From Herbidospora cretacea (lineage in GTDB: Bacteria; Actinomycetota; Actinomycetes; Streptosporangiales; Streptosporangiaceae): 64,000 nt of DNA. Location of the stretch: contig NZ_BBXG01000003.1 of NCBI RefSeq assembly GCF_001570605.1, positions 335,252-399,251 on the forward strand, in the 5' to 3' direction. Below are positions 21,868 to 50,140 of the stretch, piece after piece (position 1 is the first letter of the stretch; each line of letters starts with the position of its first letter). Below the pieces are notes generated by a model that saw only the letters and a list, made by a program, of their open reading frames with translations, was not told the origin of the DNA and did not search any database. Position numbers and translations under genes: made by a program.

Positions 21868-21876
21868 GGTGACTCC

Positions 21877-22878
21877 GTGACGCTCAACGACATCTGGTTC
21901 GCCGCCATCGCGGTGCTCTTCGTCGGCTACTTCGTGCTGGAGGGCTTCGACTTCGGGGTGGGGGTGCTGCTGGCGTACCTCCCCAAGGACGAGCGGGAGC
22001 GCCAGGTGATGGTCGGCACGATCGGGCCCGTGTGGGACGGCAACGAGGTCTGGCTCATCACCGCCGGAGGCGCGCTGTTCGCCGCCTTCCCCGAGTGGTA
22101 CGCCAGCCTGTTCAGCGGTTTCTACCTGCCGCTGCTGGTCATCCTGCTGGCGCTCATCGTGCGCGGGGTGGCCTTCGAATACCGGGGCAAACACCGCTCG
22201 AAGCGGTGGCGGCGCAACTGGGACCGCTGCCTGTTCTGGGGTTCGCTGGTGCCGGCGTTCCTGTGGGGCGTGGTGTTCGGCAACATCGTGCGCGGGGTGG
22301 CCCTCGACGAGCGCCACGAGTTCGTCGGCGCGGTCTGGGGGCTGCTGAACCCGTTCGCGCTGCTCGGCGGTCTGACCACGCTCGCCCTGTTCGTCACCCA
22401 CGGCGCGGTGTTCCTGGCGCTGAAGACGCGGGGGAGGATCCGCCGGAAGGCGAAGGACACGGCCGACCGAGCCGGGGTCATCGCGGCGGTTCTGGTCATC
22501 GGGTTCCTGACCTGGACGCAGGTCATGGAAGGTTCATGGGCGAGCATCCTGCTCGCGGCGGGAGCGATCGCCGCCTGGGGGGCCGGGATGGCGGCCAACT
22601 TCTTCGGCCGGGAGGGCTGGGCGTTCCTCGGCTCGGCCGCCGCGATCGGTGCGGCGACGGTCAGCCTCTTCGCGGCGCTCTATCCCGATGTGCTGCCGTC
22701 GACGGTGAGTTCGGAGAACAGCCTGAACATAGAAAACGCCGCGTCCACGCCGAAGACCTTGCAGATCATGACGTGGGTCGCGGTCGTGTTCCTGCCGCTG
22801 GTGCTGCTCTACCAGTCGTGGACCTACTGGGTGTTCCGCCGCCGCATCGGTGTGCGGAACATCCCAGTGGGTCACTGA
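21877..22878 (+). CDS. cydB: Cytochrome bd ubiquinol oxidase subunit II, copy 1
   Basis: A 333-residue membrane subunit with about eight spans. Family hallmarks are FVLEGFDFGVGVLLAYL near the N-terminus, GPVWDGNEVWLITAGGALFAAFPEWYA, and a C-terminal QSWTYWVFRRRIG. It pairs with the preceding cydA in one transcription unit. The GTG start overlaps no other gene, and the unit ends before the convergent whiB gene. Confidence 0.94.
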   Translation: MTLNDIWFAAIAVLFVGYFVLEGFDFGVGVLLAYLPKDERERQVMVGTIGPVWDGNEVWLITAGGALFAAFPEWYASLFSGFYLPLLVILLALIVRGVAFEYRGKHRSKRWRRNWDRCLFWGSLVPAFLWGVVFGNIVRGVALDERHEFVGAVWGLLNPFALLGGLTTLALFVTHGAVFLALKTRGRIRRKAKDTADRAGVIAAVLVIGFLTWTQVMEGSWASILLAAGAIAAWGAGMAANFFGREGWAFLGSAAAIGAATVSLFAALYPDVLPSTVSSENSLNIENAASTPKTLQIMTWVAVVFLPLVLLYQSWTYWVFRRRIGVRNIPVGH

Positions 22879-33989: not shown

Positions 33990-34016
33990 CCCGCGTCAAA
34001 GGGAATTAAACGCGGG
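33990..34016 (-). terminator. Terminator-like hairpin at the end of the FdrA-YlbE gene
   Basis: CCCGCGT (33990-33996) pairs with ACGCGGG (34010-34016) around an AT-rich loop that contains the stop codon region of the fusion gene. On the minus strand it is followed by TTTGA, a short T-run. Confidence 0.45.
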
Positions 34017-36831
34017 CCAAAGCGGCCAGCGCGGCGGTGAAAGCCTCCATCGGAGGGCTCACCAGACCCGCTCCGACCTGCCCTGTTCCGGCGAGCCGCC
34101 CAGCGATACCCGTATTGACTACCGGCAGCACTGAGGTCCGAGTGACCAGTGTGACATCGATCCCCGCCGGAGTCCCCCGGAACCCCAGACCCGGGATCTG
34201 GTACACGGGGTGCTCGGCGAGCGTGATCTCGTACATGGCCGTGGTGGCCGCGATCGCGTCCGCGACGTCGCCGCCCACGAACCGGACGATCGCCGGGGCG
34301 GCGGCCATGGAGAAGCCGCCGAGGCCCACCGTCTCGGTGATGGTGGAGTCGCCGATGTCGGGGTTGGCGTCGGCGGGGCCGTACGCGCCGAGGTAGAGGC
34401 CGTCGGGGACGCCCGCCGGGCCGGTGAACCAGCGGTCGCCCAGGCCGGAGACCTGGATGCCGAAGTCGGTGCCGTTCCTGGCCATCGCGACGACCATCGA
34501 GGAGCCCGGGACGTCCCTGGCCGCGTCGGCGGCGACCTTCCCGGCCGCCATGCCGGCGTTGAGGAAGAAGTGGTCGTTGCCGTTGACGAACCGCAGGACC
34601 TCGGCGGCCTTGGTGGGGACGGCGTCCACGATGGCCGGGGCCAGCTCCCTGACCAGCAGCGAGGTGGCGGCGCGGTTGCGGTTGTGCAGCTCGTCGCCCA
34701 TCTGGAGCGCCTGGGCGATCAGGTTGCGCAGGTCGAGCGGGCCGGTCAGCCTCACGACCTCGGCCAGCGCCGGGCCGAGCACCTCGCCCATCCACCTGAG
34801 CCGCTCGATCACCTCGGGGCCGTAGGCGCCGTACCGGAGGACCTTGCCGAGCCCCTCGTTCAGCGAGCAGTAGGCGGTCCCGCCGTTCTCGGCGTCGTGG
34901 ACCTCCAGCATCCACATGGACGGCGACACGACGCCCGCCATGGGGCCGACGGTCCGGTGGTGGTGACAGGAGTCGAGCGTGACCTCACCGGCGGCGAGCC
35001 TGCGCTCGGCGTCCTCGGCGTCGGCGGCGAGCCCCTCGAACAGCATCCCGCCGATGAGCGCGCCCCTCATCGGGCCGGAGGCGCGTTCCCAGTCGATGGG
35101 CGGTCCGGCGTGGAAGAAGGTGCCCTTCGGCAGGTCCAGCACGTCACCCGCGCGCCTGACCCCGACGAGGTGCGGCCTTGCGGCCAGCATCCTGCCGACG
35201 GCCTTCTCGTTGGCGGCCTTCCGGCGAGGATCGGCCATGACGGCGGCCAGATCCGCGGCCACCCCCGCGACGGGGGGCCGCCAGTCGACGGGCGTGTGCG
35301 CCACGGCCTGCTGATCCAAGGCCTCGGCCAGGATCGACGCGCCCACGGAGACGACCGAGGGCTCCGCGGAGAGCATGGCCAAAGGCTGCCCGGCCCACCC
35401 GCCCTGAGGGGCGGTCTTCGGCGTGCTTGCGGCCAGGTCGCCGCTGATGGGCTCCTCGACGGTCAGGCCGGCCAGGGTGGCTGCTCTCCGGGCCGCCTGG
35501 GCGTTGGAGGTGTAGACCTCCGCGCCCGACTCGAAGAGGCGGGCCGCCTGGGCCTGGAGGTTCTGGGGGTCGCCGTCCGTGCCGACCAAAGCGACCACGA
35601 CGGCGACGCCGCGGGACTTGGCCGCCGCGACGGCGCCCGCGAGGGAGCGGGCCGGGTCGGGGTCGGAGCCGTGGCCCAGGACCACGTCCAGGAGGGCGAC
35701 GCCCTCGGTGACGGCGTCGAGGGCCTCCAGGCGGAGGGCGGGGTCGATCATGGGGTGGGCGCGGCCGACGGTGTACTCGTCGTCGCCGAAGTCGGTGAAC
35801 TCGCCCGTCCCGGCGATCAGGCGGGCCTCGGTGCACAGCGTGCCGCCGGAGTAGAGGCCCCTCAGGGGGCCGCCGCCGGGTTCGGCGTTGCCGGGCCAGC
35901 TCGGCCAGGAGGGGATCTGCGCGCCGACCGCGCGCAGGACCTGCTCCGCCGCCGAGGTGAGGTCGGGCCGGCCCTCGCCGAGCAGGGCGGTGACGACCGG
36001 TTTGGGGCTCCGGGCGACGGCCTCGGCGAGGCGGGCGGCGACGGCCGGGTCCGGGGGCTTGGAGATGACGACGACCAGTTCGGTGGCGGGGTCGGCGATC
36101 AGCGCCGCCAGCGCCTGGAGGGTCGAGCGGCCGGCCACCTCGGCGGACAGGTCGCGCCCGCCCACGCCGAGGACGTGGCTGACGCCCACCCCGGCCAGGT
36201 CGAGGAGCGAGGTGAGCTGCTGGGCGCCGGTGCCGGAGGCGGCGACCACGCCGACCCTGCCGGGGCGGACCACGTTGGCGAAGCCCAGGCCAACGCCGCC
36301 GACGACGGCGGTGCCGCAGTCGGGGCCCATGACCAGGACGCCCCGCTCCAGGGCGAGGTCCTTCAGGGCCACCTCGCGCGCGACCGGCACGTTGTCGCTG
36401 AAGATCATGACGGAGTGGCCGCCGTCGACCGCCTCCATCGCCTCGGTGAAGGCGTGTTCGCCGGGCACGCTGACCAGCACGACCGCCGACGGGTCGGCCA
36501 GGCGGGTGGCGGCGCGGATGGTCCGGGGGAGGGCCTCGTCCCGGCGTGCGGATTCGGCGCGGGTCGTGAGCTGCTCCTCCAGGGCCGAGGCCGCCCCGCC
36601 GAGGTCCTCCTCGGACGTCGCCCTGATCGCCACCAGCAGGTCGCCGGGGGTCGCCTCGGGGACGTCGAAACCGGCGTCCCGGGCGAGTTCCACGTTCAGG
36701 GCGGTCGCCATGGCCACGATGGCCAGTTCGACCCCCGGGCGGCCGGTCAGCGCCTGGCTGACCCTCATCAGGCTGACCGAGTCGTGATAGACCCCGGGCC
36801 GGATCTCCACCAGGTTCACAGCCAGGTTCAC
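34006..36831 (-). CDS. fdrA: Fused FdrA (AllF) and YlbE/DUF1116 (AllG) protein
   Basis: A 941-residue fusion of two proteins that are separate in E. coli. Residues about 1-470 are FdrA, a succinyl-CoA-synthetase-like acyltransferase (VLVMGPDCGTAVVGGVGLGFANVV, GLYSGGTLCTEARL, DPALRLEALD). Residues about 500-941 are DUF1116/YlbE (GTFFHAGPPIDWERASGPM, DSCHHHRTVGPMAGVVSPSMW, NGNDHFFLNAGMAAGK). In E. coli these families with DUF2877 form AllFGH, the oxamate carbamoyltransferase that makes carbamoyl phosphate in allantoin breakdown. The GTG at 36831 overlaps the DUF2877 stop. The real substrate in this locus may differ. Confidence 0.85.
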   Translation of the reverse strand: MNLAVNLVEIRPGVYHDSVSLMRVSQALTGRPGVELAIVAMATALNVELARDAGFDVPEATPGDLLVAIRATSEEDLGGAASALEEQLTTRAESARRDEALPRTIRAATRLADPSAVVLVSVPGEHAFTEAMEAVDGGHSVMIFSDNVPVAREVALKDLALERGVLVMGPDCGTAVVGGVGLGFANVVRPGRVGVVAASGTGAQQLTSLLDLAGVGVSHVLGVGGRDLSAEVAGRSTLQALAALIADPATELVVVISKPPDPAVAARLAEAVARSPKPVVTALLGEGRPDLTSAAEQVLRAVGAQIPSWPSWPGNAEPGGGPLRGLYSGGTLCTEARLIAGTGEFTDFGDDEYTVGRAHPMIDPALRLEALDAVTEGVALLDVVLGHGSDPDPARSLAGAVAAAKSRGVAVVVALVGTDGDPQNLQAQAARLFESGAEVYTSNAQAARRAATLAGLTVEEPISGDLAASTPKTAPQGGWAGQPLAMLSAEPSVVSVGASILAEALDQQAVAHTPVDWRPPVAGVAADLAAVMADPRRKAANEKAVGRMLAARPHLVGVRRAGDVLDLPKGTFFHAGPPIDWERASGPMRGALIGGMLFEGLAADAEDAERRLAAGEVTLDSCHHHRTVGPMAGVVSPSMWMLEVHDAENGGTAYCSLNEGLGKVLRYGAYGPEVIERLRWMGEVLGPALAEVVRLTGPLDLRNLIAQALQMGDELHNRNRAATSLLVRELAPAIVDAVPTKAAEVLRFVNGNDHFFLNAGMAAGKVAADAARDVPGSSMVVAMARNGTDFGIQVSGLGDRWFTGPAGVPDGLYLGAYGPADANPDIGDSTITETVGLGGFSMAAAPAIVRFVGGDVADAIAATTAMYEITLAEHPVYQIPGLGFRGTPAGIDVTLVTRTSVLPVVNTGIAGRLAGTGQVGAGLVSPPMEAFTAALAALARV

Positions 36832-37730
36832 AGAGCGTCCCTCTCGCGCAGTTCGAGGACGGCCGAGGCTCCCGTCCGGATGCCCCAGGCCAGGTCGGCG
36901 CCCGAGGTGTGGCCGAGTCTCAGCAGGCGGTGGACCGCCGGTTCCAGCGGCTGGCGGCCGGTGAGGCCGCGCAGGACCGCGATGGTCTCCAGGCCCGCCT
37001 CGCCGCGCGCCGCGCAGTGCAGCAGGGTCGCGGAGATGGGAGTGGTCCGCGTACGGGCGTCGAAGGTGACCGCCGCCGCGAGCCAGTCGGCCAGCCACAC
37101 GGCCCTGCCGACCCCGGCCGCCGAGCCGACGGCCCGCAGCGTCACCAGGAGCCCGGCCAGCATGTCGTCGCCGCTCGGGGTCAGGCCGGGCCCGAGGCCC
37201 ATGAGCTGCTCGGCCGCGGTGATCGCGTCGACGAGCGAGCCCCGGTGGCAGCCGGCCGCCAGCAGCGCGGACGCGCCGCCGCTCTCCAGGCCGGGCCGCC
37301 TGGGGGAGGCCGCGCAGATGTCGTGGAGGAGGGGAAGGGTCGCGGCGAGAGCCGTACCGGAGACGGAACCGAGCGAGGGAGCCGGGTCCCACCAGCGGCG
37401 GACCCGGACGGCCCGGCCGCCGGCCTCGACCACCCCGTCGCCGACCCACGCGTCGTCGCCGGCCGCGAAGCCCTTCAGCGGGCCGGTCAGCACAACGGCG
37501 TTGGGCAGGCGGGTGGCCTCGCCGGTGACCAGCGCGAGCACGCGCGGCTCGGTCTCGGTCCGCACTTCCAGGTAGACCGCCAGCGGGAAGGCGGCCAGCA
37601 CGCGGGCGGGCCGGCGCGGCGCCTCCAGGAGCGGCCGGAGACTGGTGGCGGCGGCCCCGGACAGGTACGTGACCTCGGGTTGCGCCGTCTGCACCGGGCG
37701 GCGGCCTCGAGGGCGGGTACCTACAGCCAC
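36828..37730 (-). CDS. DUF2877 (AllH/YlbF-type) protein
   Basis: A 300-residue cytosolic protein with the DUF2877 hallmark LMGLGPGLTPSGDDMLAGLL at about residues 190-209 and a following ARTRTTPISATLLHCAARGE segment. The same family is the third component, AllH, of the E. coli oxamate carbamoyltransferase, next to FdrA and YlbE. Here it is the first gene of a two-gene unit coupled by GTGA to the FdrA-YlbE fusion. The GTG at 37730 has GGAGG 5 nt upstream. It is divergent from pucR. Confidence 0.82.
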   Translation of the reverse strand: MAVGTRPRGRRPVQTAQPEVTYLSGAAATSLRPLLEAPRRPARVLAAFPLAVYLEVRTETEPRVLALVTGEATRLPNAVVLTGPLKGFAAGDDAWVGDGVVEAGGRAVRVRRWWDPAPSLGSVSGTALAATLPLLHDICAASPRRPGLESGGASALLAAGCHRGSLVDAITAAEQLMGLGPGLTPSGDDMLAGLLVTLRAVGSAAGVGRAVWLADWLAAAVTFDARTRTTPISATLLHCAARGEAGLETIAVLRGLTGRQPLEPAVHRLLRLGHTSGADLAWGIRTGASAVLELRERDAL

Positions 37731-37815
37731 GAGTCCTCCATCGTCGGAACCCCCATTAAGAGGGACGCTAGAACGGGACCCCCGGGGTCCGTACGGGGAA
37801 ATCTGCCAACAGTCG

Positions 37816-37854
37816 GCCAAATGCTTGGCTCTTCCTGACAGTCGCGCAGTCAGG
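37816..37854. promoter_or_regulatory. Two dyads in the DUF2877/pucR divergent promoter
   Basis: GCCAA-ATGC-TTGGC (37816-37829) and CCTGAC-N9-GTCAGG (37834-37854) lie side by side in the AT-richer 165-nt region between the two divergent starts. They are plausible PucR operators and suggest autoregulation plus control of the divergent unit. Confidence 0.45.
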
Positions 37855-37895
37855 CACAATTTGCTGAGAACGCACAAATCCCCCCGGAGCGCACC

Positions 37896-39506
37896 ATGAC
37901 GACGGATCCAGCTGCACCCGCGATGCGGCTCGCAAGCACCGGAACGATCATTCACGGAGTGACCGTCGGAGAGGTCCTGGGCGTGTCGACCCTCGCGGGG
38001 GCCCGGCTCATCGCCGGTAAGTCGGGGCTCGACCGCGTCGTGCAGCGCCTCAACGTCATGGAGGTCCCCGACATCCTGGCCTGGGTGAAGCCGAACGAGC
38101 TGCTGCTCACGACCGGTTACCCGCTCAGGAACACTCCCCAGTCGCTGGGCCGCCTTGTGGCGGATCTTGACGAACGCGGGCTGTCGGCGCTCGCCATCAA
38201 GCTGGGCCGCTACCTCGACGAACTGCCCGCCGAGATGATCGAGCAGGCCGACCGGCTGGGCTTCCCGCTGATCATCCTCCCCAACGACGTTGGGTTCGAC
38301 GACATCCTCAACCAGGTCCTCACCGACATCCTCAACCGGCAGGCCGCCATCCTCGCCCGCGCCGAGGACGCCCACCGGGGGCTCGTCCAGATCGTGCTGG
38401 CGGGCGGCGGCATGCGCGAGGTGACCGCCGAGGTGGCCGGGCTGCTGGAGGTCGCGGTCGCCGCCATGGACGTCTCGGGCGCCACCCTCGCCGCCGCCGG
38501 CGGGGCCGAGCAGGTCGGCATGCTGCGGGAGGCCTACCTGGTCAGCGGTCCGGGCCGCGACCAGCCCGAGCCGATGGTGCGGGCCGACGGCCACTACGCC
38601 GTGGTGCCGATAGTGGCCGGAGGCCACCACCACGGCCGGATCGTCGCCTTCAGCCAGGCCGGGACCCTGCGCGAGAGCGACATCCGCATCCTGGAGCGGG
38701 CCGCGACCGTGGCCGCGCTCGTCATCACCAAGCAGGAGGCGGTCAACGCGGTCGAGAGCAAGTACCGGGCCGACTTCCTGCGCGACGTGCTCACCGGCCG
38801 GGGCGGCGGGCGCATCGCCGAACGCGCCAAGGCCTTCGGCTGGGACCTGGAGCGCCCCGTCAGCGTCATGGTCGCCGAGCTCGACCCCGAGAGCGACGAG
38901 CGCACCGCCCAGGACCGGCTGCTCGGCGTCTGGCAGGCCGCCGTCCGGCGGCACGACCCGCGCGGCGCGGTCGCCGGGTTCTCCCACGAGGTGGTCGTCA
39001 TCGTCGGGGCCGGGGTCGACACCGCCCGGCTCGCCGCCGCGGCGCAGTCGGCCTTCGCCGAGTGCACCTTCTCGACCGGGATGAGCCGCATCGCCTCCGG
39101 CGCGGAGGGGCTCGCCGACGCCTACGGGCAGGCGCTCAAGGCCGCCCGGGTGGGCCGCCAGCTCCACGGCAACGGCGCGGTCGCCCACTTCGACCAGCTC
39201 GGCGTCTACCGGCTGCTGTCCCTCGTCAACGACACCGCCGAGCTGCACGCCTTCGTCCGGGAGACCCTCGGCGCGCTGGCCGGCGACGACGACGCCGAGA
39301 ACGCCGACCTGCGGCGCACCCTCCACGTGCTGCTGGAGACCAACCTCAACGTCGCCGAGACCGCCCGCCGCCTGCACTTCCACTACAACACCCTGCGCTA
39401 CCGCATCGGAAAGCTCGAACGCCTGCTCGGCAACTTCACCGAGGACGCCCACCTGCGCCTCAACCTCACGCTGGCGCTCCATGTCCTCAACATGCGCGGC
39501 ATCTAG
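37896..39506 (+). CDS. pucR: PucR-family transcriptional regulator
   Basis: A 536-residue regulator. The N-terminal PucR ligand-sensing domain (about residues 20-145) contains GVTVGEVLGVSTLAGARLIAG and NELLLTTGYPL. A GGDEF-like middle domain follows, then a C-terminal PucR helix-turn-helix (RTLHVLLETNLNVAETARRL, FHYNTLRYRIGKLERLLG). PucR proteins induce purine catabolism in response to purine intermediates. It sits between the DUF2877/FdrA unit and the NCS2 permease/hydroxylase operon and probably controls both. ATG at 37896 has CCGGAG upstream. Confidence 0.9.
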   Translation: MTTDPAAPAMRLASTGTIIHGVTVGEVLGVSTLAGARLIAGKSGLDRVVQRLNVMEVPDILAWVKPNELLLTTGYPLRNTPQSLGRLVADLDERGLSALAIKLGRYLDELPAEMIEQADRLGFPLIILPNDVGFDDILNQVLTDILNRQAAILARAEDAHRGLVQIVLAGGGMREVTAEVAGLLEVAVAAMDVSGATLAAAGGAEQVGMLREAYLVSGPGRDQPEPMVRADGHYAVVPIVAGGHHHGRIVAFSQAGTLRESDIRILERAATVAALVITKQEAVNAVESKYRADFLRDVLTGRGGGRIAERAKAFGWDLERPVSVMVAELDPESDERTAQDRLLGVWQAAVRRHDPRGAVAGFSHEVVVIVGAGVDTARLAAAAQSAFAECTFSTGMSRIASGAEGLADAYGQALKAARVGRQLHGNGAVAHFDQLGVYRLLSLVNDTAELHAFVRETLGALAGDDDAENADLRRTLHVLLETNLNVAETARRLHFHYNTLRYRIGKLERLLGNFTEDAHLRLNLTLALHVLNMRGI

Positions 39507-39528
39507 GCCCGGTTGTTTGGCACATGCT

Positions 39529-39588
39529 GCCCGTGTGCTACAGAGATCACGGGCCTAATGTGCCCGCAACAGCCCTGGTAGGAGGGCT
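39529..39588 (+). promoter_or_regulatory. Structured leader of the NCS2 permease operon
   Basis: Three stems can form: GCCCGTG/CACGGGC (39529-39554), CGGGC/GCCCG (39550-39566, mutually exclusive with the first) and AGCCCT/AGGGCT (39571-39588). The last contains a GGAGGG ribosome-binding site directly before an ATG at 39590, whose out-of-frame ORF of 75 codons runs into the permease gene. This resembles a conditional leader, but I cannot match it to a known riboswitch. Confidence 0.4.
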
Positions 39589-39660
39589 GATGAACGCATT
39601 GCCGCGCTGGGAAGCCCGCGGGGTGGCCACCAGGTGTCGGCCCGTTGCAAAGGGGCACAC

Positions 39661-40983
39661 ATGGCTTTCGGCTGGAAGGTACACGGAGAAAAGGGCACGC
39701 TCGCGCCCGGTGAGGTGGTCAAGCCGGACGAGCGGCTGTCGTGGCCGCGCATGGTCGGATTCGGCGCCCAGCACGTCATCGCGATGTTCGGGGCCACGTT
39801 CGTCTTCCCGGTGGTGATGGGGCTCGACCCCAACGTCGCGGTGATGATGAGCGGCGTCGCCACGATCATCTTCCTGCTCATCGTGAACGGGAAGATCCCC
39901 AGCTATCTCGGCACGTCGGCGTCGTTCGTCGGCGGCGCGGCCGCCATCACCGCCGCCGGGGGCGGACCGGCCCAGATCACGGGCGCCATCCTGGTGGCCG
40001 GCGTGGTGCTCGCGCTGTGCGGCGTGATCATCCACTTCCTCGGGATCGGGGTCATCAACCGCGTCTTCCCGCCGGTGGTGACCGGCGCGGTCGTCATGCT
40101 CATCGGCTTCGGCCTCGCCTACGTCGTCGCCGACATCTACTGGCCGCAGGACCAGTGGATCGCGCTGATCACGATGCTGGTCACCTTCGTCACCATCGCG
40201 CTGTTCAAGGGCTTCATCGGGCGGCTCGGCATCCTCATCGGCCTGGTCGCCGGTTTCGTGCTGTCGTGGCTGGCCGACGTGGTCTTCGGCCAGATCACCG
40301 CCCCCACCGGGGCGGGCCAGGTCACCAGCCACTTCCGCGTCGACTTCGGCGGGGTGGAGCAGGCCTCCTGGTTCGGCCTGCCGAACTTCCACGCGCCCGA
40401 CTTCAGGCTCTCGGCCATCGTCGTGGTGCTCCCTGCGGTCATCGCGCTCATCGCCGAGAACATCGGCCACGTCAAGGCGGTCGGCGAGATGACCGGCGCC
40501 GACGTCGACCCGGTCATGGGCAGGGCCATCATCGGCGACGGCGTCGCCACGGTGATCACCTCGGCGGTCGGCGGGTCGCCCACCACCACCTACGCGGAGA
40601 ACATCGGCGTCATGGCCGCCACCAGGGTCTACTCGACGCTGGCCTACTACATCGCCGCCGTCATCGCGATCCTGCTGGGTCTGGTGCCCAAGTTCGGCGC
40701 GCTCGTCTACGCCATCCCCGGCGGCGTGCTCGGTGGCGTCACGGTCATCCTGTACGGCATGATCGGCCTCCTGGGCGCCAAGATCTGGATCGAGAACCGG
40801 GTGGACTTCGCCGACCCGGTCAACATGGTCCCGATCGGCGCGGGCATCATCCTGGCGATCGGCCCGGTCAACATGCGGATCGTCGAAGGCTTCGACCTCG
40901 GCGGCATCGCGCTGGGCACCGTCGTCGTCCTGGGCGGATATCACCTCTTGAGAGCGCTTTCCGGGAGTAGAACGGTTTCGTGA
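39661..40983 (+). CDS. NCS2-family nucleobase permease (UraA/RutG-like)
   Basis: A 440-residue nucleobase:cation symporter with about 14 membrane spans. Substrate-site motifs are seen in FVGGAAAITAAGGGP, LIAENIGHVKAVGEMTG (substrate-binding Glu and His) and GGSPTTTYAENIGVMAATRVYS. The pattern is closer to the uracil/UraA branch than to xanthine permeases, though PucR-linked members import purines too. ATG 39661 has AAAGGGG upstream. Its stop overlaps the hydroxylase FAD subunit start (GTGA), so transport and oxidation are coupled. Confidence 0.88.
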   Translation: MAFGWKVHGEKGTLAPGEVVKPDERLSWPRMVGFGAQHVIAMFGATFVFPVVMGLDPNVAVMMSGVATIIFLLIVNGKIPSYLGTSASFVGGAAAITAAGGGPAQITGAILVAGVVLALCGVIIHFLGIGVINRVFPPVVTGAVVMLIGFGLAYVVADIYWPQDQWIALITMLVTFVTIALFKGFIGRLGILIGLVAGFVLSWLADVVFGQITAPTGAGQVTSHFRVDFGGVEQASWFGLPNFHAPDFRLSAIVVVLPAVIALIAENIGHVKAVGEMTGADVDPVMGRAIIGDGVATVITSAVGGSPTTTYAENIGVMAATRVYSTLAYYIAAVIAILLGLVPKFGALVYAIPGGVLGGVTVILYGMIGLLGAKIWIENRVDFADPVNMVPIGAGIILAIGPVNMRIVEGFDLGGIALGTVVVLGGYHLLRALSGSRTVS

Positions 40984-41792
40984 AACCTCCGTCGTTCGTC
41001 TACCACGCTCCCGCCACGGTGGCCGAGGCCGTCGAGGCCCTCGCCGCGGCGGGAGCCGACGGGAAGGTGCTGGCCGGCGGCCAGAGCCTCATCCCGCTCA
41101 TGAACATGCGGCTCGCCGCGCCCGGCCACCTGGTCGACATCAACCACGTCGCCGGGCTCGCCGGGATCACCGCCGAGCCCGGGGGAGTGCGGGTCGGCGC
41201 GCTGGCCCGCCACGCCGAGGTCGAGGCCAGCGAGACGGCCCACGCCGCACAGCCCCTCGTGCGCCGGGCGCTGCGGCTGGTGGCCCACCCCGCCGTGCGG
41301 AACCGGGGGACCACCGTCGGGAGCATCGTGCACGCCGACCCGGCCGCCGAGATGCCGGCCGTGCTGGCGCTGCTGGACGGCTCCGTCCGGGTCCGCGGCG
41401 CCGAGGGGGAACGTGACATCCCGGCCGCCGAGTTCTTCACCGGGCCGATGGAGTCGTCGCTGCGCACCGGCGAACTGGCCGTCTCGGTGTTCTTCCCGTC
41501 CAGCGAGGGCGGGACCGCCATCGTCGAGATGGCCCGGCGGCACGGCGACTACGCCATGGCCGGGGTCGCGGCGCTGGTCGCCCCCGATCACGCGAGGGTC
41601 GCCTGCCTGAGCGTCGGGGCGGTGCCCGTGGTCGTGGACGTCACCGAGGCCGAGGGTGACTGGAGGCGGGCGGCCCGGCTCGTCCAGGAACAGATCGATC
41701 CGGAGGCCGACATCCACGCCACCGCCGACTACCGACGGCACCTCACCGGAGTCCTGACCGAGCGCGCGCTGAAGGCGGCGGCCGATGCATGA
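40980..41792 (+). CDS. Molybdenum hydroxylase FAD subunit (CoxM/XdhB-like)
   Basis: A 270-residue flavin subunit of the xanthine dehydrogenase/CO dehydrogenase superfamily. FAD-binding loops are AGGQSLIPLMNMRLAAPGHLVDI and VRNRGTTVGSIVHADPAAEMPA, the second in the family-typical TxGG-like position. It relays electrons from the [2Fe-2S] subunit to an acceptor. It overlaps the permease gene upstream (GTGA) and the small subunit downstream by 8 nt. Gene order here is M-S-L. Confidence 0.92.
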   Translation: MKPPSFVYHAPATVAEAVEALAAAGADGKVLAGGQSLIPLMNMRLAAPGHLVDINHVAGLAGITAEPGGVRVGALARHAEVEASETAHAAQPLVRRALRLVAHPAVRNRGTTVGSIVHADPAAEMPAVLALLDGSVRVRGAEGERDIPAAEFFTGPMESSLRTGELAVSVFFPSSEGGTAIVEMARRHGDYAMAGVAALVAPDHARVACLSVGAVPVVVDVTEAEGDWRRAARLVQEQIDPEADIHATADYRRHLTGVLTERALKAAADA

Positions 41793-42261
41793 CGTCACTC
41801 TGATCGTCAACGGGGTGCCGCGCCACGCGCGGGTGCCCGCGCGGCGGCTGCTCAGCGACTTCCTCCGGCACGACCTCGGGCTGACCGGCACCCACGTCGG
41901 CTGCGAGCACGGGGTCTGCGGGGCCTGCACGGTCCTGCTCGACGGGCAGCCGGTGCGGGCGTGCCTGACCTTCGCGGTCTCGGTGTCGGGCCAGGAGGTG
42001 ACCACGGTCGAGGGGCTGGCGAGGGACGGCCAGCCGTCCGCCGTCCAGCGGGGCTTCGCCGAGTGCCACGGGCTCCAGTGCGGGTTCTGCACGCCCGGCT
42101 TCCTGACCACGGCGACCGCTTTCCTGCGCGACAACCCGGCGCCCTCCGACGAGGACGTGATCGAGGCGGTGTCGGGGAACCTGTGCCGGTGCACGGGCTA
42201 CCAGAACATCGTGAAGTCGGTGCACCGCGCCGCCGAACTGCTGGCCGAGGAGGGCCCGTGA
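41785..42261 (+). CDS. Molybdenum hydroxylase [2Fe-2S] subunit (CoxS/XdhC-like)
   Basis: A 158-residue subunit with two clusters. The plant-type ferredoxin ligands are CEHGVCGACTVLLDGQPVRAC (Cys at about 40, 45, 48, 60). The second, helical cluster uses CGFCTPGF and CRCTGY. It connects the Mo and FAD subunits. Its ATG lies inside the end of the FAD-subunit gene and its stop overlaps the large-subunit GTG as GTGA, giving tight stoichiometric coupling. Confidence 0.94.
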   Translation: MHDVTLIVNGVPRHARVPARRLLSDFLRHDLGLTGTHVGCEHGVCGACTVLLDGQPVRACLTFAVSVSGQEVTTVEGLARDGQPSAVQRGFAECHGLQCGFCTPGFLTTATAFLRDNPAPSDEDVIEAVSGNLCRCTGYQNIVKSVHRAAELLAEEGP

Positions 42262-44681
42262 CCACCAAGCTGTTCGGCGAACCGGTCCGCCGCAGGGAGG
42301 ACGCCCGGCTGATCGCCGGGGACGGCCGCTACCTCGACGACCTGGGGGCCGGCGCGCTGGCGGTGGCCTTCGTGCGGTCCCCGCACGCCCACGCCCTCAT
42401 CACCGGCGTCGACGTCGACGACGCGATCGACGTCGAGGGCCTGGTCGCGATCTACACGTGGGAGGACCTGCCGCCCGGCGTCCGCGAGCCGCTGCCGCTG
42501 CTGATCCCCCACCCGGCGCTGACCCACGGCCGGACCGCCTACTGCCTGGCCAAGGACGTCGTGCGGCACGTCGGCGAGCCGATCGTCATGGTCGTCGCGA
42601 CCGACCGGTACATCGCCGAGGACGTCTGCGAGCGCATCCGGGTCTCCTACGAGTTCCGCAAGCCCGTCGTCGGCCTGGAGAACGCCGTCGACGGGCCCCA
42701 CCTGGTCCACGACGACGTGCCCGGCAACGTGGGCGCCCACATGGTCCAGGAGGTCGCCCACCGCGACGGCCGGGCCACCCGCGACGTCATCGCCGCCGCG
42801 CCCCACACGCTGGAGTTCCGGCTCGACGTCGAGCGGTCGGCCTGCATGCCGATGGAGGGCAGGGGCGTGTACGCCCGGTGGGACGCCGACGACCGGTCCC
42901 TGCGCGTCTACAGCTCCACCCAGACGTCCACCAGCGTCCAGATGGCCATCGCGGCCAAGCTCGGGCTGCCGCTGCCCAAGGTCGAGGTCATCGCGCCCGA
43001 CGTCGGCGGCGGGTTTGGCGTGAAGATCGTGCACCCGTGGCCGGAGGAGATCCTCGTGCCGTGGGCGGCCCGGCTGCTGAACCGCGAGGTCAAGTGGACC
43101 GAGGACCGGCGGGAGCACTTCATCTCCTCCGCGCACGAACGGGCGCAGGTGCAGCACGTCAAGGTGGGGTTCGACGACGAGGGCCGCGTCCTCGGGCTCG
43201 ACGTCGAGATCCTGCACGACCACGGCGCCTACACGCCCTACGGCATCATCGTGCCGATCATCACCTCGACGCAGCTGCTGGGGCCGTACAAGATCGGCTC
43301 CTACCGGGTCGAGTTCTTCTCCGTCTACACCAACACCGTGCAGGTCACCCCCTATCGGGGCGCGGGCCGCCCGCAGGGCGTCTTCTGCATGGAACGCACG
43401 ATGGACAAGATCGCCCAGTACCTCGGCAAGGACCGCGCCGACGTCCGGGCCGCCAACTTCATCCAGCCGGACGAGTTCCCCTACGACCAGCAGATGATCT
43501 TCCAGGACGGCCGCCCGCTGATCTACGACAGCGGCGACTACCCCGAGTCCCTGCGCAAGCTGAAGGATTTGATCGGCTGGGACGAGTTCCCGCTCATGCG
43601 GTCGAAGGCCGCGGAGGAGGGCCGCCGCCTGGGCATCGGGATCGGCTGCTACGTCGAGGGCACCGGCGTCGGCCCCTACGAGGGCGGCCACGTCCAGGTG
43701 ACCTCCGACGGGCGGGTCCACGTCTCCACCGGGCTCACCTCACAGGGCCAGGGCCACGAGACCGTGTTCGCCCAGATCGCCGCCACCGAGCTCGGCGTGC
43801 CGATCGAGAAGGTCTCCGTCGTCACCGGCGACACCCGGCGGTTCGGCTACGCCGTCGGCACGTTCGCCTCCCGGGCCGCCGTGATGAGCGGCAACGCCAT
43901 CGCGCTGGCCTGCCGGAAGGTCAAGGAGAAGGCGCTGCGGATCGCCGCCGACGCGCTGGAGGCCGACCCCGCCGACCTGGAGATCACCGACGGGATGGTG
44001 CACGTCGTGGGCGCGCCGAACGCCTCGATCCCGCTGGCCACCGTCGCCGTGCTGTCGAACCCGCTGCGCTACGCCTTCGACGAGGAGGCCAAGCGCGCCA
44101 CCCAGTTCGCCACCGGCGGCAGCATGGACCGGCCCCCGGTCGCCGAGGGCCAGGAGCCGGGCCTGGAGGGCAAGGACTACTACTCGCCGGTGCGCTCGAC
44201 GTTCGCGTCGGGCATGCACGCCGCGATCGTCGAGACCGACCCCGACACGGCCGAGATCAGGATCCTGCGGTACGCCGTCGTCCACGACTGCGGCAAGATG
44301 ATCAACCCGATGCTGGTCGAGGGGCAGATCCACGGCGGCGTCGCCCAGGGCGTCGGCGGGGCCCTCTACGAGAAGATGGTCTACGACGAGCACGGCCAGC
44401 TCCTGAACGCCTCGTTCATGGACTTCCTGATGCCCTACGTCACCGAGATCCCGAAGATCGAGACCGACCATTTGGAGACCCCGTCCCCGCTCAATCCCCT
44501 GGGCATCAAAGGGGCGGGCGAGGCCGGGGTCATCCCGGTCTCCGCCGTCATCGCCGGCGCGGTGGAGGACGCCGAGGGGATCGCGATCGACCGGATGCCG
44601 ATCTCCCCGTCGGACCTCTACGCGCTGCGCGACTCCAGCAGGACCTCCGGAGCGGTCAGCCGCTTGCGGAACACCCAGTAG
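42258..44681 (+). CDS. Molybdenum hydroxylase large subunit (XDH/aldehyde-oxidase family)
   Basis: An 807-residue molybdopterin-cytosine-dinucleotide subunit. Mo-pterin contacts are DVGGGFGVK, the PYRGAGRPQ loop, TSQGQGHETVFAQIA and the catalytic Glu in KGAGEAGVIPVSA. The active-site loop is PYRGAGRP, not the AYRCSFR of true CO dehydrogenase (form I), so this is a hydroxylase of an aldehyde or N-heterocycle. With NCS2 permease and PucR, xanthine/hypoxanthine or a related nucleobase is the likely substrate. Its end overlaps the convergent cydB copy 2 by 64 nt. Confidence 0.9.
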   Translation: MTTKLFGEPVRRREDARLIAGDGRYLDDLGAGALAVAFVRSPHAHALITGVDVDDAIDVEGLVAIYTWEDLPPGVREPLPLLIPHPALTHGRTAYCLAKDVVRHVGEPIVMVVATDRYIAEDVCERIRVSYEFRKPVVGLENAVDGPHLVHDDVPGNVGAHMVQEVAHRDGRATRDVIAAAPHTLEFRLDVERSACMPMEGRGVYARWDADDRSLRVYSSTQTSTSVQMAIAAKLGLPLPKVEVIAPDVGGGFGVKIVHPWPEEILVPWAARLLNREVKWTEDRREHFISSAHERAQVQHVKVGFDDEGRVLGLDVEILHDHGAYTPYGIIVPIITSTQLLGPYKIGSYRVEFFSVYTNTVQVTPYRGAGRPQGVFCMERTMDKIAQYLGKDRADVRAANFIQPDEFPYDQQMIFQDGRPLIYDSGDYPESLRKLKDLIGWDEFPLMRSKAAEEGRRLGIGIGCYVEGTGVGPYEGGHVQVTSDGRVHVSTGLTSQGQGHETVFAQIAATELGVPIEKVSVVTGDTRRFGYAVGTFASRAAVMSGNAIALACRKVKEKALRIAADALEADPADLEITDGMVHVVGAPNASIPLATVAVLSNPLRYAFDEEAKRATQFATGGSMDRPPVAEGQEPGLEGKDYYSPVRSTFASGMHAAIVETDPDTAEIRILRYAVVHDCGKMINPMLVEGQIHGGVAQGVGGALYEKMVYDEHGQLLNASFMDFLMPYVTEIPKIETDHLETPSPLNPLGIKGAGEAGVIPVSAVIAGAVEDAEGIAIDRMPISPSDLYALRDSSRTSGAVSRLRNTQ

Positions 44682-45526
44682 GTCCACGCCTGGTAGGCGA
44701 TGACCCCCGGGAGCGCGAGCAGGCCGATCCACGTGAGGACCGTGAGCGTGTAGGGCGCCGAGGCGGCCGACTCGACCGTGAGGCCGGGCAGCGGCGAGGG
44801 GTGGAGCGCGAGGAAGAGCGCGGCGGTGGTGAGCACGATCGTGACGGCGGTGCAGGCGAACGCCCAGGCCTCCCTGCCCGCCCACACGAGGGCGACCCCG
44901 GCGGCGTAGGCCGCCATCGCCGCGTAGGCGGGCCAGGCGTCCATCCGCCACAGGGCGAACGCGACGACCGGGACGAGGATCACGCCCAGGACCCACGCGG
45001 TCTCGCGGGCGCGGGTCCGCACCGGGCCCCGCGTCTTGAGCGCGACGAACACCGCGCCGTGCACGAGCGCGAGCCCCAGCGACAGCAGCCCGCCCATGAC
45101 GGTGGCGAACGCCGAGCCGAAGAGCACGTTGCCGAAGATCGCCCCCCACAGGAAGGCCGGCAGCACGCTCCCGGTCACGATCGCGGCGTCGACCAGCGGG
45201 ACCTCCCTGGCGCGCACCTTGCCGCGCCACTCCAGCCCGACGCCGCGCACGATCAGCCCGAGCACCACCAGCACGGCGGGCAGGTAGAACGTGCTGAGGA
45301 ACCCGGCGTACCAGGCGGGGAAGGCGGCGAACATCGCGCCGATCGCGGTGACCAGCCACACCTCGTTGCCGTCCCAGACCGGGCCGATGGTCCGGATGAC
45401 CTGGCGGCGCTCGGCCTCGCCGCGGGCCAGGAGGGGCATCAGCGCGCCGACCCCGAAGTCGAACCCCTCCAGGACGAAGTAGCCCGTCCACAGGAAGGCG
45501 ATCACGATGAACCAGAACGTGGTCAT
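44618..45526 (-). CDS. cydB: Cytochrome bd ubiquinol oxidase subunit II, copy 2
   Basis: A 302-residue bd-oxidase subunit. FVLEGFDFGVGALMPLLARG, GPVWDGNEVWLVTAIGAMFAAFPAWYA and the C-terminal QAWTYWVFRKRL match the family. It is shorter than copy 1 (333 residues), lacking part of the central loop. It follows cydA copy 2 by 11 nt on the minus strand. Its 3' end runs 64 nt into the convergent hydroxylase gene. Confidence 0.93.
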   Translation of the reverse strand: MTTFWFIVIAFLWTGYFVLEGFDFGVGALMPLLARGEAERRQVIRTIGPVWDGNEVWLVTAIGAMFAAFPAWYAGFLSTFYLPAVLVVLGLIVRGVGLEWRGKVRAREVPLVDAAIVTGSVLPAFLWGAIFGNVLFGSAFATVMGGLLSLGLALVHGAVFVALKTRGPVRTRARETAWVLGVILVPVVAFALWRMDAWPAYAAMAAYAAGVALVWAGREAWAFACTAVTIVLTTAALFLALHPSPLPGLTVESAASAPYTLTVLTWIGLLALPGVIAYQAWTYWVFRKRLTAPEVLLESRSA

Positions 45527-45537
45527 GTCAGCGCACC

Positions 45538-46953
45538 TCAGTACATCATCGTCGGGACGCGGCGCTTGGTTTCGCCGGCCACGACGGCCGGCACCGGTTC
45601 GTCCGGGCCGGCCTTGACGTGCCGGACCAGCAGGACGATCTCGGCCACCGTCAGCACGCCGTAGACCACGGTGAACAGCGCCAGCGAGATCGCGACCTCG
45701 GCCAGGCTGACGCCGGGGGACACGCTCGCCGCGGTGAGCAGCTCGCCCTGGACGGTCCAGGGCTGGCGGCCGATCTCGCTCAGCAGCCACCCGGAGACGA
45801 TCGCCGCGATCGGCAGCGGCAGCGCGAGCACGCACAGCCGGGCGAACCAGCTCGGCACCGGGCGGGCCTTGCGGCCGCGTCCACGGGTCAGGAACAGCCC
45901 GAGGAGGGCCAGCCCGACCGTGGCCATGCCGAACACGATCATCACGCGGAAGGACAGGTAGACGACCGGCAGGTTCGGCGTGTAGTCGCCGGGGCCGAAC
46001 TGGGCCACCAGCCGCTGGTTGATGTCGTCGATGCCCTGGACGACGGCGTTCGGGTCGTGCGCGGAGAGCAGGCTCAGCAGGTGGGGGACCTCGACCCCCG
46101 GCACCGGCGAGAACGGCGCGCCGGCGGTGTCGTGCCGCAGCCCCTCGGCGGCGGCCAGCTTCATCGGCTGCTGCGTGTGCAGCAGCTGCCCCGACATGTC
46201 CCCGGTCAGGGCGACGACGGCCCCCGCGATCGCCGTCATGACCAGGGCGCCGCGCAGCGCCGCCCGCCACATGTCCGCGGGTCTCCGCATGGGGACGGTC
46301 TCGTCCCGGCGCGGGCGCAGGGTCGCGTTGCGCTCCCGCAGGATCCGGTAACCGGCCACCGCCAGCACGAAGCCGCCCGCCACCACGAACGACCCGGCCA
46401 CCACGTGGGGGACCTGCGCGAGCGCGGTCGAGTTGGTCAGCACCGCCCACAGGTCGGTCATCCTGGCCCGGCCGTCGACGACCTCGTAGCCGACCGGGTG
46501 CTTCATCCAGGCGTTGGCGGCCAGGATGAAATAGGCCGACAGGTTCGACCCGATGACCGCCGCCCAGATCGTGGCCAGGTGGAGCTTCTTCGGCAGCTTG
46601 TCCCACCCGAAGATCCACAGCCCCAGGAACGTCGACTCCAGGAAGAACGCCAGCAGCGCCTCCATGGCCAGCGGCGCCCCGAACACGTCCCCGACGAAGA
46701 TCGAGTACTCGCTCCAGTTCATGCCGAACTGGAACTCCTGCACGATGCCGGTGACCACACCCATGGCGAAGTTGATCAGGAAGAGCTTGCCGAAGAACTT
46801 CGTCAGCGTCAGGTAGTGCTCTTTGCCCGTGCGGTACCACGCGGTCTGCAGACCGGCGACGAACACCCCGAGCCCGATCGTCAGCGGCACGAAAAGAAAG
46901 TGGTAGACGGTGGTGATGCCGAACTGCCACCGCGCCAGGTCCAAAGCCTCCAT
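45538..46953 (-). CDS. cydA: Cytochrome bd ubiquinol oxidase subunit I, copy 2
   Basis: A 471-residue haem subunit. The ligands are visible in TTVYHFLFVPL, AQVPHVVAGS and YLSFRVMIVFG, and GRQPW is present near the C-terminus. The quinol loop is short. By eye it resembles copy 1 in many blocks (ALDLARWQFGITT, GIVQEFQFGM) but differs through the middle, so the two are diverged paralogues rather than a recent duplication. ATG 46953 has GGAGGGGG upstream. A dense cluster of inverted repeats lies just upstream. Confidence 0.94.
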   Translation of the reverse strand: MEALDLARWQFGITTVYHFLFVPLTIGLGVFVAGLQTAWYRTGKEHYLTLTKFFGKLFLINFAMGVVTGIVQEFQFGMNWSEYSIFVGDVFGAPLAMEALLAFFLESTFLGLWIFGWDKLPKKLHLATIWAAVIGSNLSAYFILAANAWMKHPVGYEVVDGRARMTDLWAVLTNSTALAQVPHVVAGSFVVAGGFVLAVAGYRILRERNATLRPRRDETVPMRRPADMWRAALRGALVMTAIAGAVVALTGDMSGQLLHTQQPMKLAAAEGLRHDTAGAPFSPVPGVEVPHLLSLLSAHDPNAVVQGIDDINQRLVAQFGPGDYTPNLPVVYLSFRVMIVFGMATVGLALLGLFLTRGRGRKARPVPSWFARLCVLALPLPIAAIVSGWLLSEIGRQPWTVQGELLTAASVSPGVSLAEVAISLALFTVVYGVLTVAEIVLLVRHVKAGPDEPVPAVVAGETKRRVPTMMY

Positions 46954-49331: not shown

Positions 49332-49477
49332 GTGAGGTCCGGGCGTTTACGCTGTGATCGTCGTCCTGCGCGGTTCGTGTACTTCTGCACGCTGGTCCCG
49401 CTCCCGGGCGGCAGATGTTGCCGTACTCGCCGATCGCCTGGATTCCCTAGTGTGCTCGGCAACCGAGGGAGGTGGCC

Positions 49478-50140
49478 GTGAAGGTCGTGGGCAGTGCCCT
49501 GATCGGGGCGGAGCGGTGGAAGGTCTGGACGGCCCTGCAGGATCCCGCCGTGCTGGTGCGGACCATTCCCGGCTGTCAGCGTCTCGAGGCGGTCGGGGAC
49601 GACGTCTACACGATGACGGTCTCGGCCGGGGTGGCCTCCATCAAGGGGGTCTACCAGGGGGAGGTCGCGCTGACCGAGCCGAAGGAGCCCGAGACGTTCG
49701 TGCTCAAGGGGCGGGGCCAGGGCGCTCCCGGGACGGTCGACGTGACGGTGAACGTGCGGCTGACCGAGGAGGACGGCGCGACCCGGGTCGACTACGACGC
49801 CGACGCCGTCGTGGGCGGGATGGTCGGCGGGGTCGGGCAGCGCATGCTCACCTCGGTGGCCAAGAAGATGGCGGGGGAGTTCTTCGCCGCCGTCGAGAAG
49901 GACATCTCGGCCGTGCCGGCGGTGTTCCCCGGCGCGCCGTCTCCCTTGGAGGGGGAGGAGCCTCGGCGGGGGATCGCGTCGCAGCGCATGGGCGTGTTCA
50001 CCCGAGGTGACGAACTGCCCCCCCGGCCTCGTGAGGGTGTCCGCGCGTGGCCGGTCCTGGCCGCTTTCGGGATGGGCGCCGGGATCGCCCTGGGAAGCGC
50101 CGTCATCGGGTGGCTTCTCGGACGTGCGAAGAAACGGTAG
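49478..50140 (+). CDS. CoxG/SRPBCC-family protein with C-terminal membrane anchor
   Basis: A 220-residue protein. Residues 1-145 form a CoxG-like SRPBCC fold (GAERWKVWTALQDPAVLVRTIPGC, VASIKGVYQGEVALTEP, GMVGGVGQRMLTSVAKKMAGEFF). The C-terminal 25 residues are a membrane span (VLAAFGMGAGIALGSAVIGWLLG) followed by RAKKR, as in CoxG proteins that tether molybdenum hydroxylases to the membrane. The hydroxylase operon is 5 kb away, so a partnership is only a guess. The GTG at 49478 has GGGAGG 5 nt upstream. Confidence 0.87.
   Translation: MKVVGSALIGAERWKVWTALQDPAVLVRTIPGCQRLEAVGDDVYTMTVSAGVASIKGVYQGEVALTEPKEPETFVLKGRGQGAPGTVDVTVNVRLTEEDGATRVDYDADAVVGGMVGGVGQRMLTSVAKKMAGEFFAAVEKDISAVPAVFPGAPSPLEGEEPRRGIASQRMGVFTRGDELPPRPREGVRAWPVLAAFGMGAGIALGSAVIGWLLGRAKKR

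Follow-up and report, generated by a model that had tools for sequence, protein, structure and literature searches.

A stretch of 64,000 nucleotides from Herbidospora cretacea (contig NZ_BBXG01000003.1, positions 335,252 to 399,251 of the forward strand), here called the window, raises the question of why a carbamoyltransferase of the AllFGH (FdrA-YlbE-DUF2877) type should be encoded divergently from a PucR-type regulator, a nucleobase permease and a molybdenum hydroxylase. The explanation that we consider best, and probably correct, is an energy-conserving oxidative catabolism of pyrimidines, in which AllFGH very probably functions in a barbiturate pathway whose ring-opening enzyme is encoded beyond the window. 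The gene content, its linkage, the co-occurrence of its parts across the class and a separate AllG clade are observed directly in the genomes, and they are presented first.

The carbamoyltransferase and its genomic partners

The fused allF-allG (fdrA-ylbE) gene occupies positions 34006-36831 of the reverse strand and encodes 941 residues, with Pfam matches to Ligase_CoA (83.9 bits) and AllG (PF06545, 322.5 bits). The third subunit, allH (DUF2877), lies at 36828-37730 on the same strand (AllH, PF11392, 93.4 bits). All three scores exceed the Pfam cut-offs, the three domains are present and coupled, and by the open reading frame coordinates allH and the start of the fusion overlap by 4 bases. 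Relatives of the fusion in the PDB are 3dmy (FdrA, 215 bits) and 3clq (371 bits), and the FdrA model NF004760 scores 380.2 bits, under its cut-off of 433. In E. coli, AllF, AllG and AllH together interconvert oxalurate plus phosphate and oxamate plus carbamoyl phosphate, and the carbamate kinase AllK is encoded in the same operon (Kim and Kim 2024, PMC11326118). Pfam names the YlbE family AllG and the DUF2877 family AllH, both as oxamate carbamoyltransferase subunits; because this naming fits the E. coli enzyme (PMC11326118), the fusion and the DUF2877 protein are, as judged from sequence, a complete AllFGH-type carbamoyltransferase of the OXTCase family. The two systems are alike in having all three subunits and a carbamate kinase in the gene set, and the AllG proteins are about 47% identical. 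They differ in that AllF and AllG are fused in the window and its AllG belongs to a separate clade, in that the window genome has a barbiturase and a molybdenum hydroxylase in place of the allantoin genes, and in that its carbamate kinase lies beside the barbiturase, whereas that of E. coli lies in the all operon.

The AllG portion of the fusion begins at about residue 486. An internal ATG at 35376 sits at the expected AllG start and has no obvious ribosome-binding site; separate translation of AllG from this codon may be possible. A sequencing frame error is thought an unlikely origin of the fusion, since a second sampled genome of the genus (G275, locus L031) carries the same open frame, with AllF 86% and AllG 95% identical. 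Among 58 loci having both AllF and AllG (57 from relatives, plus the window), the two share one frame in three, namely the window, G275 and the distant G221 (locus L085), and are not in one open frame in the remaining 55. The fusion is real but rare, a detail of the lineage and not the main point of interest. The original prediction of a single 941-residue FdrA-YlbE protein is borne out by the open reading frame, the Pfam domains and the frame in G275, and its coupling to DUF2877, divergent from PucR, permease and hydroxylase, by coordinates and Pfam. That prediction needs correcting in that DUF2877 is the third subunit of the putative carbamoyltransferase and that fusion is confined to 3 of 58 loci.

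The company that this unit keeps was followed through 394 genomes of the class, taken evenly out of a larger set. AllG is found in 88 of them, a barbiturase-family protein in 82 and the large hydroxylase subunit CoxL (NF040766 over cut-off) in 76; 73 genomes, spanning 14 family labels and called cluster genomes below, have all three, and 298 have none. The barbiturase family accompanies AllG in 75 of 88 genomes, against 7 of the 306 without AllG. CoxL is present in 73 of the 75 genomes with AllG and barbiturase, and the barbiturase family in 75 of the 76 with CoxL. Fisher tests, which treat related genomes as independent, give p values of 3e-58 for AllG with barbiturase, 4e-60 for AllG with CoxL and 3e-71 for barbiturase with CoxL. 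Two genomes have AllG and barbiturase without CoxL (G020, and G119, where CoxL is in pieces), and two have barbiturase and CoxL without AllG (G014, 72% complete, and G206, 100% complete). Single components occur as AllG alone (13 genomes), barbiturase family alone (five, with proteins merely 37-42% identical to the cluster barbiturases) and CoxL alone (one, G266).

Past the window end, a carbamate kinase and the barbiturase stand in tandem (C3:414004-416022, about window 78753-80771), about 42 kb from the AllFGH cluster on the same contig. The carbamate kinase gene (L119:15005-15925, about window 78753-79673) yields a match at C3:414016-414912 of 332.8 bits over model positions 2-308 of 309, under the TIGR00746 cut-off of 358.25. 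The adjoining barbiturase (P0001; L119:15926-17023, about window 79674-80771) scores 572.6 bits with the solved barbiturase 5hwe and 319.9 with the best solved cyanuric acid hydrolase, and is 73-85% identical to nine relatives from other genomes; in sequence it is barbiturase-like and not closer to the cyanuric acid hydrolases. AllG and barbiturase share a contig in 48 of the 75 genomes at a median distance of 30 kb, and in 40 of these 48 they lie no more than 50 kb apart. In 46 of the 80 named loci the gene immediately 5' of barbiturase is that for carbamate kinase; of the 34 others, 2 have barbiturase at a contig edge and 17 belong to Nonomuraea. Kinases above 300 bits occur in 70 of 73 cluster genomes compared with 7 of 54 that lack the cluster, and some of those counted may belong to arginine catabolism. 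Relatives of HyuB, a subunit of a putative ATP-dependent amidohydrolase (HyuAB), are found at E <= 1e-100 in all 73 cluster genomes, G266 and G014, and in neither G206 nor the four controls, the only true controls in that search. Both searches covered the cluster genomes, G206, G266, G014 and these controls (80 genomes for the kinase); 50 further genomes without the cluster, hand-chosen, were added for the kinase, of which G031 and G100 carry a distant barbiturase relative.

The AllG tree adds a second line of evidence. Among 83 rows, the AllGs from barbiturase genomes fall into one 67-row clade (support 100/98), in which 66 of the 67 represented barbiturase-positive genomes have a row. The exception, G051 (430 contigs, 93% complete), has its sole detected AllG outside, and the single barbiturase-negative row inside comes from G108, whose assembly is 80% complete and has its AllG on a contig of 4.7 kb. 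Outside the clade are the E. coli AllG and 15 others, including that of G051 and a second copy of G068. The tree represents 81 of the 88 AllG genomes, the window's included; G041, G084, G097, G113, G119, G134 and G144 were left out, and a 175-residue AllG fragment (L176, G020) was excluded. A second tree of 38 rows was built from 33 of the 81 rows of relatives, the window, E. coli and three plasmid rows; in it, 22 of 22 rows again form the barbiturase-linked clade with support 100/100. The alignment contains 41 positions that are invariant, E. coli included, and 15 that are diagnostic of the clade. A substrate change within one chemistry would look like this; the pattern is the one expected of it and no proof.

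A predicted route from pyrimidines to carbamoyl phosphate

The hydroxylase is encoded on the forward strand by genes for a CoxM-like FAD subunit (40980-41792; PF00941, FAD_binding_5), a CoxS-like [2Fe-2S] subunit (41785-42261; PF01799, Fer2_2, and PF00111) and a CoxL-like molybdopterin subunit (42258-44681; MoCoBD_1/2). CoxL reaches 1524.9 bits with NF040766, whose title is aerobic carbon-monoxide (CO) dehydrogenase large subunit. This title would suit a CO dehydrogenase unrelated to AllFGH, as would the accompanying CoxG and the genes of other genomes that, judged by sequence, probably encode CoxD/E/F-like maturation factors. However, the active-site loop that reads AYRCSFR in the CO dehydrogenases 1n5w and 1ffu and AYACSFR in 8uem is PYRGAGR in the window CoxL, so that the active-site cysteine is replaced and the cysteine loop of aerobic CO dehydrogenases is absent. 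Together with the co-occurrence of CoxL with AllG and barbiturase, this motif rules out a CO dehydrogenase identity as far as we can judge and leaves that reading scarcely any probability; the NF040766 name may mislead in other genomes as well. The closest solved relative of CoxL by sequence is quinoline 2-oxidoreductase (446 bits, compared with 417 for 8uem). CoxMSL shares with both enzymes the three-subunit FAD/2Fe-2S/molybdopterin composition of the xanthine oxidase family, and departs from aerobic CO dehydrogenase in the missing cysteine motif and in its co-occurrence with barbiturase.

Upstream of these genes, on the same strand, are the PucR-family regulator (37896-39506; PF07905 and HTH_30; PucR 126.9 bits) and the NCS2 nucleobase permease (39634-40983; Xan_ur_permease 257.7 bits). 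The permease is nearest to the NCBIfam model for the pyrimidine transporter RutG (366.9 bits), followed by uracil permease (275.3) and xanthine permease (165.3), an order that points to pyrimidines, with every match below its curated cut-off. Because the CO dehydrogenase cysteine is missing, the permease scores rank in this order, the barbiturase family occurs in 75 of 76 CoxL genomes and quinoline 2-oxidoreductase is the nearest solved relative, CoxMSL is the best candidate for a pyrimidine-to-barbiturate enzyme, and we think it likely that it converts uracil or thymine to barbiturate.

In the proposed pathway, PucR would sense and the NCS2 permease would import uracil, perhaps also thymine. 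CoxM, CoxS and CoxL would oxidise uracil at C6 to barbiturate and hand on the electrons, possibly via CoxG, and the barbiturase, from its gene just outside the window, would open the ring to ureidomalonate (HOOC-CH2-CO-NH-CO-NH2). AllFG-AllH would then take up phosphate and, by analogy with the action of E. coli AllFGH on oxalurate, probably phosphorolyse ureidomalonate to malonamate and carbamoyl phosphate; oxalurate is ureidomalonate minus one CH2. The carbamate kinase encoded beside the barbiturase would convert carbamoyl phosphate and ADP into ATP, NH3 and CO2, and an amidase or nitrilase would turn malonamate into malonate and a second NH3. We infer every one of these substrates, and the malonamate step, from sequence, and take the chemistry of barbiturase and AllFGH from the literature on their relatives. 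The import, hydroxylation and carbamoyl harvest outlined in the original prediction fit the comparative evidence well, but a pyrimidine degraded via barbiturate, and not a purine or allantoin derivative, is the most likely heterocycle; nor is the pathway compact, as had been supposed, given that barbiturase, carbamate kinase and HyuAB also take part and the genes are spread over about 47 kb.

An oxidative pyrimidine pathway with barbiturase and ureidomalonase was reportedly described in Rhodococcus by Soong et al. in 2001 and 2002. Later papers refer to it (PMC3758960, PMC7662398, PMC3961730); one calls it rare and gives the route as pyrimidine to barbiturate and, via barbiturase and ureidomalonase, to malonate and urea (PMC3758960), end products also named in another (PMC7662398). 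The window genome resembles Rhodococcus in having a barbiturase near 5hwe. It differs at the acylurea bond, which is hydrolysed to urea in Rhodococcus, whereas here AllFGH and carbamate kinase are predicted to take the place of ureidomalonase and to conserve the bond energy. Among the matches listed from the open-access literature, in the excerpts available, nothing links AllFGH or carbamate kinase to barbiturase.

Competing explanations and contrary evidence

An ordinary oxamate carbamoyltransferase could instead act on oxalurate from an allantoin or hydantoin route, with the barbiturase neighbourhood incidental. This would agree with the Pfam naming of AllG and AllH, with the characterised E. 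coli enzyme (PMC11326118) and with an allantoinase over the curated cut-off in the window genome. That allantoinase lies on a separate contig (C17), so the statement in the original prediction that the usual allantoin genes are absent holds near the cluster but not genome-wide. Moreover, the excess of allantoinase among AllG genomes is slight (51 of 88 against 122 of 306 others, the AllG genomes being scored by the E-value column and the rest by subtraction from the 173 over cut-off), in contrast to the barbiturase family with its 75 of 88 against 7 of 306. An allantoinase over cut-off is missing from 25 of the 73 cluster genomes, so that the cluster is not tied to an allantoin branch, and the E. 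coli AllG lies outside the clade that the barbiturase-linked AllGs make up. On the allantoinase profile and the tree, an allantoin or purine pathway is rejected as the principal explanation, and the oxamate alternative as a whole appears unlikely. An early idea of ours, a route from hydantoin through parabanate to oxalurate, was abandoned once the barbiturase was found. Cyanuric acid degradation, with the ring-opener as cyanuric acid hydrolase and AllFGH acting on carboxybiuret, draws on a score that also counts against our own reading: the ring-opener scores 462.6 with the NCBIfam equivalog for cyanuric acid hydrolase, above its cut-off of 360. It draws as well on Aminobacter and Klebsiella plasmids, where AllFG and carbamate kinase adjoin proteins nearest to solved cyanuric acid hydrolases. 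We consider it very improbable, since the window ring-opener is far nearer the solved barbiturase (572.6 against 319.9 bits) and since CoxMSL would have no role in it, yet CoxL occurs in 73 of the 75 genomes with AllG and barbiturase. A modest outside chance belongs to a different oxidised substrate, either another heterocycle or an aldehyde, in which case barbiturase and AllFGH would act on an analogue. Examples are a substituted barbiturate formed from thymine, or a hydantoin/parabanate series in which HyuAB would be the main ring-opener. HyuB in all 73 cluster genomes, HyuAB without barbiturase in G266 and the sub-cut-off permease matches would fit this; the permease scores nonetheless favour pyrimidines, and no association is tighter than that between CoxL and the barbiturase family, which is present in 75 of 76 CoxL genomes.

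Further observations weigh against energy-conserving pyrimidine catabolism. The evidence for the cluster proteins is comparative, and the Fisher tests count kindred genomes as independent. Among the 73 cluster genomes, G023 has a 25-residue barbiturase fragment, the barbiturase match of G209 is in two pieces, and G051 has only the distant-type AllG outside the clade. AllG and barbiturase lie on different contigs in 27 of 75 genomes (21 of these in assemblies of at least 90 contigs), and one pair on a single contig is 1.7 Mb apart. Most carbamate kinases fall under the TIGR00746 cut-off, which 16 of 80 genomes exceed; G200 and G209 have no strong kinase, G023 has a fragment, and 17 of 20 Nonomuraea loci have none directly 5' of barbiturase. 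No single malonamate amidase is conserved across the 101 clustered stretches, where the amidase family appears in 12 and the nitrilase family in 7, and a malonamidase identity for an adjacent amidase was dropped, as its PDB relatives are generic amidases only. HyuB is present in 73 of 73 cluster genomes although HyuAB is superfluous in the scheme; G206, with CoxL and barbiturase, lacks AllG, HyuB and an adjacent carbamate kinase, and G266, with CoxL and HyuAB, lacks both AllG and barbiturase.

The last two genomes are natural reductions of the cluster, to CoxMSL, CoxG and barbiturase in G206 (L165-L166) and to CoxM, CoxL, CoxG and HyuAB in G266 (L167), where CoxS was not called by the gene finder. 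They are useful for placing HyuAB and AllFGH. HyuAB and barbiturase are separable, since G266 has the former without the latter and G206 has barbiturase without HyuB; the substrate that HyuAB opens may be an alkylated barbiturate derived from thymine, or HyuAB may serve as a ring-opener driven by ATP. No obvious ureidomalonase that could serve as a hydrolytic replacement is seen in 39 kb of G206, where just 2 genes were compared with Pfam.

Neighbouring genes, plasmid relatives and significance

The neighbourhood of AllG is consistent across 61 loci, the window's own and 60 from 59 further genomes: PucR is found in 53, CoxL and CoxS in 49 each, NCS2 in 48 and AllH in 40, and wider stretches add CoxG, HyuA, HyuB, carbamate kinase and an AtzD/barbiturase-family protein. 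In the window, the CoxG-like gene lies at 49472-50140 (+; PF06240, 93.5 bits), with homologues in 40 of 101 clustered stretches. The genes for the HyuA-like amidohydrolase subunit (51912-53930, +; PF01968, 295 bits) and the HyuB-like subunit (53917-55737, +; PF02538, 454 bits) follow; with 455.6 bits for HyuA (alpha model) and 199.1 for HyuB, neither reaches the NCBIfam caprolactamase equivalog cut-off of 1000 each. About 20 loci have nearby genes that read from their sequence as MocA-, CoxD-, CoxE- and XdhC/CoxF-like maturation factors, of which none is seen in the window or in the 39 kb beyond it. Two cytochrome bd (cydAB-type) pairs are also encoded in the window, one (44618-46953, -) wedged between CoxL and CoxG, likewise in several relatives, and the other at 20503-22878 (+), its subunit II named from clustering. 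Near the barbiturase, outside the window, are a CaiB-type CoA transferase and a carboxyltransferase (L119 3593-6249, about window 67341-69997), which recur in 19 and 20 of the 80 named barbiturase loci, respectively, and which we tentatively regard as possibly a branch for malonate activation and decarboxylation. A locus of G159 (L149 7046-12026) combines an isochorismatase-family hydrolase with AllF, AllG and carbamate kinase without barbiturase, and is perhaps another acylurea pathway.

Comparable gene sets are carried by plasmids. pSR8 of Aminobacter sp. SR38 (L268 7579-21391) has fdrA, DUF1116, a ring-opening amidohydrolase and arcC one after another, and DUF2877 some 6 kb further downstream; pMB5632_3 of Klebsiella aerogenes (L269 10701-19630) has, in this order, a ring-opening amidohydrolase, NCS2, DUF2877, fdrA, DUF1116 and arcC. 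Both islands lie near insertion sequences, and each begins with a hypothetical protein that has no Pfam match, one of 411 and one of 454 residues. They resemble the window genome in uniting AllF, AllG, AllH, carbamate kinase and a ring-opener of the AtzD/barbiturase family. They differ in that the ring-openers resemble cyanuric acid hydrolases (810 bits with 5t13, which we take to be TrzD, along the full length, and 582 bits with 6bum), in that their AllGs sit on branches of the 38-row tree other than the barbiturase-linked clade, and in that no molybdenum hydroxylase is annotated within the 25 kb stretches. Of 38 Pseudomonadota ring-opener records, 36 also appear in the AllG matches, both among the matches listed; the islands count as at least two cases and not 36, because the majority repeat a single island almost unchanged. 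Rhizobium contributes 67 of 132 ring-opener records and is absent from the ten genera that the AllG tally names, which makes it probable that some genomes have the ring-opener and lack AllG.

Since carboxybiuret, ureidomalonate and oxalurate share the structure of a carboxylated N-acylurea, a single phosphorolytic chemistry could suit each of them. We speculate, giving the idea an even chance, that AllFGH enzymes are general phosphorolytic N-acylurea carbamoyltransferases that were repeatedly recruited downstream of AtzD/barbiturase-family ring-openers. On the same even footing, the substrate would be ureidomalonate in actinomycetes and carboxybiuret (giving allophanate) or a similar compound on the plasmids, and the NF040766 'CO dehydrogenases' would, with equal chances for and against, be the missing uracil/thymine dehydrogenase. 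The idea is limited by Peptoclostridium, which has AllFGH and carbamate kinase with no AtzD-family gene annotated in 25 kb, and by the possibility that TrzD itself decarboxylates carboxybiuret (PMC5366886). In nitrifier genomes, allFGHK lies beside biuret and triuret genes, which the authors interpret as oxalurate use (PMC12625717).

If the proposed pathway is correct, the energy of the acylurea bond is caught as carbamoyl phosphate and ATP and not lost as urea, one branch of pyrimidine catabolism has to be revised, and the pyrimidine-oxidising first step gains a gene candidate. The names 'oxamate carbamoyltransferase' and 'aerobic CO dehydrogenase' would then be wrong or too narrow in many actinomycetes (73 of the 394 sampled genomes). 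The distribution of the genes suggests that oxidative pyrimidine degradation is not rare in Actinomycetes, contrary to its description in PMC3758960. The proposed pathway would also suggest how one enzyme family serves purine, pyrimidine and s-triazine nitrogen use, and, should AllFGH indeed act on N-acylureas in general, the degradation of nucleobases and triazines would yield ATP.

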